64,000 nucleotides of DNA from assembly GCF_017751145.1 (NCBI RefSeq), contig NZ_CP046640.1, positions 1,654,137-1,718,136 of the forward strand. Reading direction: 5' to 3'. Below the pieces are notes generated by a model. It worked only from the letters and a program-made list of their open reading frames with translations, was not told where the DNA came from and searched no databases. Below are positions 12,824 through 47,126 of this stretch, one piece after another; position 1 is the stretch's first letter, and every line of letters begins with the position of its first letter. Position numbers and translations under genes: made by a program. Source of the stretch: Iocasia fonsfrigidae (lineage in GTDB: Bacteria > Bacillota > Halanaerobiia > Halanaerobiales > DTU029).

Positions 12824-12861
12824 GAGCTCGTACATTTATAAAATCAAGGTATCAACCTTGG

Positions 12862-12977
12862 ACTGGTTCGAGACCCTCCCAGTATAAAAAACTAAGGATT
12901 GAAAATACAGAATGATTAAAACACAATGTTACTTGTGTTTATTTAGCGCTGTTATCCTTAGGGAGACAGCGTTTTTT
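12862..12977 (+). promoter_or_regulatory. PreQ1-I riboswitch with transcription terminator
   Basis: The aptamer (12862-12898) has P1 stem ACTGG/CCAGT, loop TTCGAGACCCTC and tail ATAAAAAACTAAGGA, matching the class I preQ1 (queC-type) consensus. The tail segment ACTAAGGAT (12891-12899) can pair with ATCCTTAG (12954-12961), forming an antiterminator. The competing terminator is CGCTGT (12947-12952) with ACAGCG (12966-12971) followed by six T's. Expected logic: bound preQ1 ties up the tail, the terminator forms and the downstream genes are off. It controls the nucleoside hydrolase, ECF S-component and radical SAM genes. Confidence 0.92.
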
Positions 12978-13032: not shown

Positions 13033-14010
13033 ATGAATGCTAAAAGAAAGGTGATTATTGATTGTGACCCGGGAATTGATGATGCTCTGGCCCTTATGTT
13101 GGCAGTTGCTTCACCAGAGTTGGAAGTATTAGGGATTACGATTGTATCTGGAAATGTTTCTGTTAAAGAGGGGGCAGAAAATGCACTGAAGGTATTAAGA
13201 CTGATGAATCGCTTAGACATCCCTGTTTATTTAGGAGAGAATACCCCTCTTAAAAGGGCATATATCAGTGCTCAGGACACCCATGGAATGGATGGTTTAG
13301 GTGAAACAAATTATGCTGCTGTAAATGAGGTAAGACCGAAAGCCGGTGCAGTAAAGTTTATTTGTGAGACCCTCTACCAGGATGAAAAGGTATCTATTAT
13401 TGCCTTAGGACCTTTGACAAATATCGCCAAAGGACTCCAGCAAGATAGGGAGGCTTTTAAAAGACTGGATGAGTTTATAAGTATGGGCGGTAATTATAGG
13501 AGTCATGGCAATTGTTCACCAGTTGCAGAATATAATTATTGGTGTGACCCCCATGGGGCCAGAGAGGTCTATGAAAAACTAGACAAAAGGATTCATATGG
13601 TTGGTCTGGACGTAACAAGAAAGATTGTGCTGACTCCAAATATATTAGAATATATGCAAAGGCTTGATCCCCATAAAGGTGAGTTTGTAAAAAATATAAC
13701 TGGCTTTTATTATGACTTTCATTGGAAACATGAAGGGTTAATTGGCTGTGTAATAAATGATCCTTTAGCAGTGGCATATTTTATTAATCGTGAATTGTGT
13801 AGTGGTTTTGAGGCCTTTACAACTATTGAAACAGAGGGAATAAGTATGGGGCAGACAATAGTTGATACCATGGGTTTCTGGAAAAAGAAGGAGAATAGTT
13901 ATGTTTTGACAGAAGTAGATCATCATGAATTTATGAAGACTTTTTTAGCTAAAGTTTTTGGAGCGGATAAAGCGGAAGTTGGATCTGTTTTAGAAGAAAT
14001 TATGAAGTAA
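13033..14010 (+). CDS. queK: Nucleoside hydrolase, probable queuosine hydrolase
   Basis: A 325-residue inosine/uridine-preferring nucleoside hydrolase fold protein. The calcium-binding DCDPGIDDALAL motif (residues 10-21) is intact, with ALGPLTNIA and MGGNYRSHGN further on and a C-terminal VINDPLAVAY carrying the second metal Asp. Being first in a preQ1-riboswitch operon with an ECF S-component and a radical SAM protein matches the described QueK-QrtT-QueL salvage set, where QueK hydrolyses queuosine to queuine. The specific substrate is therefore inferred from context; the hydrolase family is clear from sequence. Start ATG 13033 follows AAAGGAGATTGGAG. Confidence 0.8.
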   Translation: MNAKRKVIIDCDPGIDDALALMLAVASPELEVLGITIVSGNVSVKEGAENALKVLRLMNRLDIPVYLGENTPLKRAYISAQDTHGMDGLGETNYAAVNEVRPKAGAVKFICETLYQDEKVSIIALGPLTNIAKGLQQDREAFKRLDEFISMGGNYRSHGNCSPVAEYNYWCDPHGAREVYEKLDKRIHMVGLDVTRKIVLTPNILEYMQRLDPHKGEFVKNITGFYYDFHWKHEGLIGCVINDPLAVAYFINRELCSGFEAFTTIETEGISMGQTIVDTMGFWKKKENSYVLTEVDHHEFMKTFLAKVFGADKAEVGSVLEEIMK

Positions 14011-45193: not shown

Positions 45194-46399
45194 TTACTTG
45201 TTTTCTTTTATCAGCCTGGAATCATCGGATAAGCAGTGCATTCCAGCTAGTTTGATTCCAGCTGCCCCCAGGGGAGCGGTTATAATAATTGCCAGTACTG
45301 CTAAAGCCAGGATAATATCACCTGATTTCACTCCTGCGGCAAGTGGAACAGCACCAATGGCTGCCTGAACAGTGGCTTTTGGAGTATAGGCAATCACACA
45401 AAATAATCTCTCTTTAAGATTAAGTTCAGTTCCACTGATAGAGATTAAAACACCAATGCCTCTGGCTATTAGTCCAGTAAAAATAATTAACAGACCAATT
45501 AGGCCTGATTCGAGAGCCAGGTGTATATTTACTTCAGCCCCTACCAGTACAAAAAGCATTATTTCAGCAAAAACCCAGATTTTATTGAACTTAGCTGCCA
45601 GGCGGTTGGCCAGTAAATTGTATTGTTCCTGTAAGATATAACCTATGACCATGACACCTAATAAAGAGGCAATAGGGATAATCCCTGCCAGGAAATCTTC
45701 CAGACTGGTCATTATAATAGCAGCACTTAAAATTAATAAAACCTTTTTGGTATCCCTGATATGATATTTTTTAAATAAATAAAGCAGAAGAAAGCCAATT
45801 AGAATCCCAAGAATTATACCTGAAGCAATAGATAGAGGAATACTTAAGATTTTTTTAGTAATATGTAGTTGTTTGCCTCCATAAAGCCCTAAAAAAGTTG
45901 AAAAAATAGTAATAGCAATAACATCATCAATAGAGGCACCTGTCAGAATAAGGGTAGGGATTCCTTTATTACTCCCTCGATTTTTATCCATTAAATCCAG
46001 CATCTGGGGGACAACTACAGCCGGTGAAACGGCTGCGATAATAAATCCTAGCATACCTGCCTCTATCCAGGAGAATTGCAAAAAATAAGTAGCCGTTAGA
46101 ATTATAGTTCCCCCCTCCAGCAGTCCAGGAATAAAACTGAGTTTTATTGCTGGAACACCTATTTTTTTAAGGGTCCTTTTTTCAATACCTAAGCCTGCCC
46201 TGAGTAATATAACAATAAGGGCGATTTTTCGAAGGTCAGGTGAGATATTTAAAATGTTTTGTTCAATTAGATTAAAGCCGTAGGGTCCCAGTAGTATTCC
46301 TAATAATAACATACCTAATAAACCCGGTAATTTCATTTTATCAAAAGATTTGTTAAAAATAAGACCTAGCATCATTATTAAAGCCAGACTAAGTGCCAT
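45194..46399 (-). CDS. Cation:proton antiporter (CPA2-type) under fluoride riboswitch control
   Basis: A 401-residue membrane protein with about 12 segments. GASIDDVIAITIFSTF (residues about 153-168) carries the paired Asp of electrogenic CPA2 Na+/H+ antiporters. The start is MALSLALIMMLGLIFN, with GAAAGGGG upstream on the minus strand, so ATG 46399 is used instead of 46417. It likely exchanges Na+ or K+ for H+. A fluoride riboswitch with terminator lies directly upstream, linking it to fluoride stress, where an antiporter could help restore ion or pH balance (inferred). It is convergent with comEC. Confidence 0.88.
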   Translation of the reverse strand: MALSLALIMMLGLIFNKSFDKMKLPGLLGMLLLGILLGPYGFNLIEQNILNISPDLRKIALIVILLRAGLGIEKRTLKKIGVPAIKLSFIPGLLEGGTIILTATYFLQFSWIEAGMLGFIIAAVSPAVVVPQMLDLMDKNRGSNKGIPTLILTGASIDDVIAITIFSTFLGLYGGKQLHITKKILSIPLSIASGIILGILIGFLLLYLFKKYHIRDTKKVLLILSAAIIMTSLEDFLAGIIPIASLLGVMVIGYILQEQYNLLANRLAAKFNKIWVFAEIMLFVLVGAEVNIHLALESGLIGLLIIFTGLIARGIGVLISISGTELNLKERLFCVIAYTPKATVQAAIGAVPLAAGVKSGDIILALAVLAIIITAPLGAAGIKLAGMHCLSDDSRLIKENK

Positions 46400-46431
46400 A
46401 ATTATTACCCCTTTCAATAGCTTATTTATGT

Positions 46432-46518
46432 AAAAAGGCTCCTATTCAGCAGTAAAACCTGAATAGGAGCCATTAATTGTTAGAAACAATGGTTACAGGT
46501 GGTGCTCCATCACCTTTA
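46432..46518 (-). promoter_or_regulatory. Fluoride (crcB-motif) riboswitch and terminator
   Basis: On the minus strand the aptamer reads AGGTGATGGAGCACCACCT, then GTAACC, a hairpin ATTGTT/AACAAT, and TAATGGCTCCTAT. P1 is AGGTG/CACCT and the pseudoknot is GGAGC/GCTCC, as in fluoride aptamers. The 3' strand also starts the terminator: GGCTCCTATTCAG (46471-46459) pairs with CTGAATAGGAGCC (46449-46437), followed by five T's. Ligand binding should hold GGCTCC in the pseudoknot and prevent termination, switching the antiporter on. A possible promoter TTGACT (46559-46554) with TATAAA (46538-46533) precedes it, though the spacer is only 15 bases. Confidence 0.9.
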
Positions 46519-46681
46519 GTATTTAGATATAGTTTATACTAGGCTTGTTATTAAGTCAAGGAAAAATTTATAAAGAAATACTAATCTATTTATAAAGAAT
46601 TATTTATGAAATTCATAATTCCTTCATAATTAAATGTTAAGATTAAATTACCAGTAAGGTATTTTATAGTTTAAAAATAAA

Positions 46682-46856: not shown

Positions 46857-47126
46857 ATGATGGGTTTTGGTCAAGGTTGGAGAATTGGTGGCTATGGCAT
46901 GCACAGTTTTGGGGGGATTTTTATGATGATTTTATTCTGGATTTTTATTATTATGGGAATAGTATATTTGGTAAAAAATTTTACTAATAATAACGCTAAC
47001 AATAATAACAGTAATAATTGCAATACTGGCCAGAGAGATAATGCTGTTAATATAGCACGGGAAAGATATGCCAGAGGTGAAATTAGTAAAGAGGAATTAA
47101 CTGAAATTATCAATAATCTTAAATGA
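46857..47126 (+). CDS. Small membrane protein with C-terminal SHOCT domain
   Basis: 89 residues: a glycine/methionine-rich N-terminus (MMGFGQGWRIGGYGMHSFGG), one transmembrane segment (IFMMILFWIFIIMGIVYLVK, about 21-40), an asparagine-rich linker, and a SHOCT helix pair ending ARERYARGEISKEELTEIIN. SHOCT proteins are short oligomerising modules of unclear function. Start ATG 46857 follows AAGGAGGG. A bidirectional terminator follows. Monocistronic. Confidence 0.85.
   Translation: MMGFGQGWRIGGYGMHSFGGIFMMILFWIFIIMGIVYLVKNFTNNNANNNNSNNCNTGQRDNAVNIARERYARGEISKEELTEIINNLK

Follow-up and report, generated by a model that had tools for sequence, protein, structure and literature searches.

A Fluoride Riboswitch Precedes a Predicted NHA-Type Cation/Proton Antiporter in Iocasia fonsfrigidae

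Introduction

Bacteria have two known types of fluoride exporter, and the antiporters found under fluoride riboswitches have hitherto been seen as auxiliaries that bring pH back to normal. What, then, does such an antiporter do in free-living anaerobes that retain a sensor for fluoride, lack any recognised exporter, and have wired the sensor to a single NHA2-like protein? The locus described here lies in a 64,000-nucleotide stretch of the Iocasia fonsfrigidae genome (the window), and it makes testable whether a Na+/H+ exchanger alone can protect against fluoride and, if it can, whether the effect comes from a change in pH or from transport of fluoride. Whichever holds, the way in which genomes are read for fluoride resistance would need revising.

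The pairing of a fluoride riboswitch with a Na+/H+ antiporter is already known and is not new; after the exporters, Na+/H+ antiporters are the next commonest genes under these riboswitches (PMC11139923, citing Baker 2012). In C. difficile, a fluoride riboswitch governs the CD0656-CD0657 operon, which encodes a CLC-F protein and an NhaP-type antiporter (PMC11477304). Our locus is alike in that a cation/proton antiporter sits in a fluoride-riboswitch operon, but CD0657 accompanies a CLC-F exporter, whereas the window antiporter stands alone in a genome in which no exporter was found. The NHA2-type identity of the protein, its lead among riboswitch targets in its order and in Clostridia, its occurrence without an exporter, and the rarity of CrcB in genomes with the linkage are all unreported in the largely open-access literature that we searched.

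Results and Discussion

The Riboswitch and Its Expression Platform

In an Rfam covariance search (cmscan), minus-strand positions 46457-46523 match the fluoride riboswitch aptamer (the crcB motif, RF01734) with a score of 40.3 bits (E=1.1e-7) against the gathering score, the curated cut-off, of 34 bits. The match spans the full length of the model (1-64 of 64) and is the sole RF01734 copy in the 3.93-Mb, single-contig genome, which is 99.1% complete. The original prediction, made from the letters alone, had called a fluoride riboswitch at 46462-46518; the covariance check bears out the call and the place, and the span proves to be ∼5 nt short at each end. We regard the identification as a fluoride riboswitch as confirmed at the sequence level, and we infer from it that the RNA binds fluoride.

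The 5′ strand of the pseudoknot, GGAGC (46508-46504), pairs with GCUCC (46470-46466). Where the Rfam consensus, GGAGU/ACUCC, has a U-A pair, the window aptamer has C-G, a compensatory change, and the same pairing is kept through several sequence variants across antiporter-linked aptamers (GGAGU/ACUCC, GGAGC/GCUCC, AAGU/ACUU and GGUGU/ACACC). Apart from this pair, the window aptamer departs from the motif only in that UAAUG replaces UGAUG, and both differences occur in relatives. The full-length match, the pseudoknot and an aptamer-overlapping terminator are otherwise as in the motif layout (PMC2864571).

That terminator occupies 46432-46471 (minus strand) and consists of a perfect 13-bp stem (46471-46459 with 46449-46437), a 9-nt loop and a T5 tract, in agreement with the earlier claim of a perfect 13-bp terminator merging with the aptamer. 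It folds with −23.5 kcal/mol (z=−7.1), and its exact pattern occurs once in the window, where 0 are expected by chance. The 3′ pseudoknot strand is also part of the 5′ arm of the terminator, a platform that fluoride binding could disrupt. Read from its sequence, this layout is that of a standard fluoride-ON attenuator, as PMC2864571 describes for the motif. Under our strict rule, a terminator overlaps the aptamer in at least 23 of 45 riboswitch-linked relatives (described below), and further ones missed by the rule are visible by eye. A candidate sigma-70-type promoter, TTGACT-17-TAAACT, lies at 46531-46559 (minus strand) and matches 9 of 12 consensus positions; sites of this kind are no commoner than chance predicts, and it is suggestive only that the promoter would put the transcript start near the 5′ end of the aptamer.

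The Controlled Gene

Downstream of the terminator, a Shine-Dalgarno sequence (AAAGGGG, 46408-46414, minus strand) is situated 8 nt 5′ of an ATG at 46399, from which an intact open reading frame of 401 codons runs on the minus strand to a stop ending at 45194. The TTG start at 46417 given in the list of open reading frames is less likely. Because the gene ends 9 bases from a convergent comEC-like ORF, it appears to be transcribed alone, and the riboswitch thus appears to control one gene. On the other side of the riboswitch and transcribed away from it, a gene at 46857-47126 (plus strand) encodes a small 89-aa membrane protein whose SHOCT-like C-terminus scores below the Pfam cut-off.

The 401-aa product scores 152.9 bits with PF00999 (Na+/H+ exchanger superfamily), where the cut-off is 26.2, and 39.9 bits with TIGR00932, the NCBIfam CPA2 subfamily model, far short of the 238.3 set for it. 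Among solved structures, its closest relative by sequence is NHA2/SLC9B2 from human and bison (7b4l, E 3.6e-45), with 31% identity in the structural alignment. The AlphaFold2 model (mean pLDDT 88, pTM 0.84) likewise has a predicted fold closest to NHA2, with a TM-score of 0.86. Residues E95, D158, D159, R313 and K341 align with NHA2 E215, D278, D279, R432 and K460, respectively, and 36 relatives show little or no variation at these positions. D158-D159 is the DD motif, aligned with the NHA2 ion-site pair D278-D279. R432 of human NHA2 forms a bridge between E215 and D278, and K460 is in contact with E215 (PMC12072577). Among CPA2 clades, this glutamate is reported to occur only in mammalian NHAs, and it may account for their electroneutral exchange (PMC6181914).

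Taken with the fold, these residues suggest to us that the protein is probably an NHA (SLC9B)-type monovalent cation/proton exchanger, and the residues indicate that it probably exchanges Na+ or Li+ for H+ at 1:1. Unlike mammalian NHA2, the window antiporter is bacterial and fluoride-regulated, and its N-terminus is ∼130 residues shorter; the alignment begins near NHA2 residue 132 with no N-terminal extension, and the extra helix TM-1 of NHA2 is apparently missing. The original prediction of a DD-motif antiporter in place of a fluoride channel holds, the protein being neither CrcB nor CLC. Its label of "CPA2-type" was right as to an antiporter and too coarse as to type, given that mammalian NHA2 proteins are the closest relatives of known structure and that the NHA-specific glutamate is present.

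Known Fluoride Exporters

Fluc/CrcB and CLC-F exporters are the usual first genes under fluoride riboswitches, and by analogy an exporter-type role might be considered for the antiporter, which has no sequence relation to either family. Looking for crcB elsewhere in the genome was a check proposed with the original prediction, and it gave the most informative result of the follow-up. Profile searches of the genome returned 0 matches to CrcB/Fluc (PF02537), 0 to the CLC family (PF00654), and 0 to a CLC-F profile built in this analysis; control genomes gave the expected matches in the CrcB/Fluc and CLC searches. Because the genome is without a known fluoride exporter, the antiporter is, as predicted from sequence, its only visible fluoride-induced defence, and the same arrangement recurs in many anaerobic bacteria. 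We note that the reading of conserved residues, the further searches for exporters and the statistical contrasts below were chosen along the way, after the first exporter search had come back empty. Throughout, strict CLC-F denotes a match to the CLC profile together with the GNNLI/GMGLI, GREGT/V and GEVTP signatures (PMC11139923).

Recurrence of the Linkage within the Order

A fluoride riboswitch is present in 21 of 38 genomes of the same order. Its commonest target is an intact antiporter (17 of the 21 genomes), which lies directly downstream in 16 and behind a GTPase-like gene in one; in this last genome (L217, G010:C1:743901-746967) the order is fluoride riboswitch, dynamin-like GTPase gene, antiporter. 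The other four riboswitch genomes have CrcB downstream in two, an antiporter remnant in one and another gene in one. At the locus of the remnant (L214, G035:C42) the riboswitch is kept and the antiporter behind it is without its N-terminal 252 residues. CrcB occurs in 4 of the 38 genomes and in 0 of the 17 with a riboswitch-targeted antiporter. The CLC proteins of the order were also considered as hidden exporters and set aside, as the loci examined carry GREGP or GRIGP-type motifs in place of CLC-F signatures; the CLC-F profile gives one weak match across the order, at 174 bits.

Four riboswitch-linked antiporters of family f4 in the order (L007, L009, L010 and L015) have S-D in place of D-D; both acids are thus not kept in every member, which counts against the exchanger reading favoured below. 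The same four proteins carry a C-terminal extension that resembles a universal stress protein domain, an assignment made by resemblance alone.

Relatives beyond the Order

Several phyla are represented among the best 80 antiporter relatives in named genomes, and in 45 of these 80 a riboswitch lies on the same strand no more than 400 nt upstream. In a quick tree (a short-search version), all 62 riboswitch-linked rows fall inside one branch of 86 rows with a support of 99, and this branch adjoins unlinked members from Bacteroidota and Lentisphaerota. CrcB is found in 3 of 44 named genomes with the riboswitch-antiporter linkage, and the strict CLC-F signature in 0 of the 41 named linked genomes searched for CLC-F. 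Homologues on plasmids were set aside as uninformative: 798 plasmid records match, for the most part over short stretches in Klebsiella and E. coli, and the one plasmid homologue inspected is a truncated gene beside resistance genes.

Linkage and Exporters in Clostridia

We sampled 293 Clostridia genomes, of which 65 contain a riboswitch over the cut-off, and examined 77 loci, with tandem aptamers counted once. The antiporter follows at 41 loci, CrcB at 13 and strict CLC-F at 5; the rest comprise another antiporter type (2), a broken copy (1), and other or unresolved cases (15). At two loci, L182 (G354:C42) and L187 (G259:C11), two tandem fluoride riboswitches, ∼100 bp apart, precede a gene for a different antiporter type. 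No antiporter of the kind studied here is found among the genes after the five riboswitch-linked CLC-Fs, and the idea that it rides with CLC-F was dropped.

CrcB is encoded in 62 of the 293 genomes, and its distribution is uneven: 1 of the 40 genomes with a riboswitch-linked antiporter has it, vs 61 of the other 253 (Fisher p=0.0007). With strict CLC-F added, the figures are 2/40 vs 66/253 (p=0.002). When CLC-F-like proteins without the full signature are counted as well, the contrast is weaker (5/40 vs 69/253, p=0.05). Five genomes (G216, G260, G355, G272 and G363; L219-L221, L236 and L237) encode near-CLC-F proteins in which GREGA and GEVIP replace GREGT/V and GEVTP. These tests ignore shared ancestry and admit other thresholds, and we take them as supportive, not decisive; the low exporter frequency in linked genomes could come partly from shared ancestry, and most unlinked Clostridia in the sample are likewise without a recognised exporter. 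A comparison limited to riboswitch genomes (2/40 vs 18/25) is stronger but biased by conditioning and is not used as evidence.

A Possible Mechanism and Its Alternatives

We lean towards the view, as somewhat probable, that a fluoride-induced NHA-type exchanger stands alone in place of an exporter and acts on the transmembrane pH difference by which fluoride is trapped. The ion comes in as HF and, like other weak acids, accumulates in proportion to the inside-minus-outside pH (PMC11139923). In the absence of fluoride, the terminator would capture the 3′ pseudoknot strand and transcription would stop; with Mg-bound fluoride, the pseudoknot would hold that strand, the terminator would be blocked and the exchanger would be made. 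The protein would then swap Na+ (or Li+) for H+ at 1:1, and this exchange would alter both fluoride accumulation and the remaining acid load. In cells without Fluc or CLC-F, it could serve as a stand-alone defence by resetting the pH gradient. Any protection would depend on direction, because H+-out exchange relieves acid but raises fluoride trapping. Countering acidification, a role suggested in the original prediction, would be thermodynamically awkward in a cell without an exporter, because H+ pumped out draws in more HF. With H+ moving in and Na+ out, trapping would be reduced and HF would leak back out. This direction is our guess and depends on the gradients; it fits the case of fluoride-adapted yeast, whose adaptation is partly via intracellular acidification, to go by the title of reference 88 in PMC11139923.

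The antiporter might instead leave the fluoride level as it is and restore Na+ or pH balance after fluoride has inhibited ATPases and glycolysis, an account that we consider possible though fairly unlikely. Other fluoride-riboswitch genes do handle downstream damage (enolase in L200, MutS-like and dynamin-like proteins), and halophiles rely heavily on Na+ cycling, which would suit such a role. A review, too, assigns the antiporters to pH homeostasis (PMC11139923). However, fluoride-sensing organisms would then have no gene for lowering fluoride, and the lower exporter frequency in linked genomes is not predicted. That rarity of CrcB (1/40 vs 61/253 in Clostridia, 3/44 in named genomes) would fit an antiporter that itself exports fluoride, for example by moving F− together with H+ or Na+ or in exchange for one of them, as a third family beside Fluc and CLC-F: it resembles the reported mutual exclusion of Fluc and CLC-F (PMC11139923), no gene but the antiporter follows a fluoride riboswitch in this genome without Fluc or CLC, and CLC-F proteins were themselves first taken for chloride transporters (PMC7266159). 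We nonetheless judge fluoride export to be quite improbable, since all known NHA2 cation-binding residues are conserved in the antiporter and no anion site was identified in it. The original prediction held that a direct role with fluoride is not established for this family, and we agree. To the best of our knowledge, no member of this fold transports fluoride.

A coincidental or functionless RNA match, or an antiporter link of that kind, is scarcely credible and already contradicted. The score of 40.3 bits is modest and a promoter-like site of this quality is to be expected by chance, but the riboswitch recurs independently before the same gene in many genomes, with compensatory pseudoknot changes and overlapping terminators. 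One may also picture an NHA2-like clade, spread over several phyla and mostly riboswitch-linked, as a third stand-alone fluoride defence that replaces Fluc/CLC-F and possibly moves fluoride; we regard this reading as speculative and unlikely.

Elsewhere in the Window

A second riboswitch in the window, of the preQ1 class (RF00522, 52.2 bits), lies at 12857-12901 on the plus strand, upstream of a nucleoside-hydrolase-like ORF that starts near 13033 (MNAKRKVIIDCDPGIDDALALML) and possibly encodes a queuosine salvage nucleosidase.
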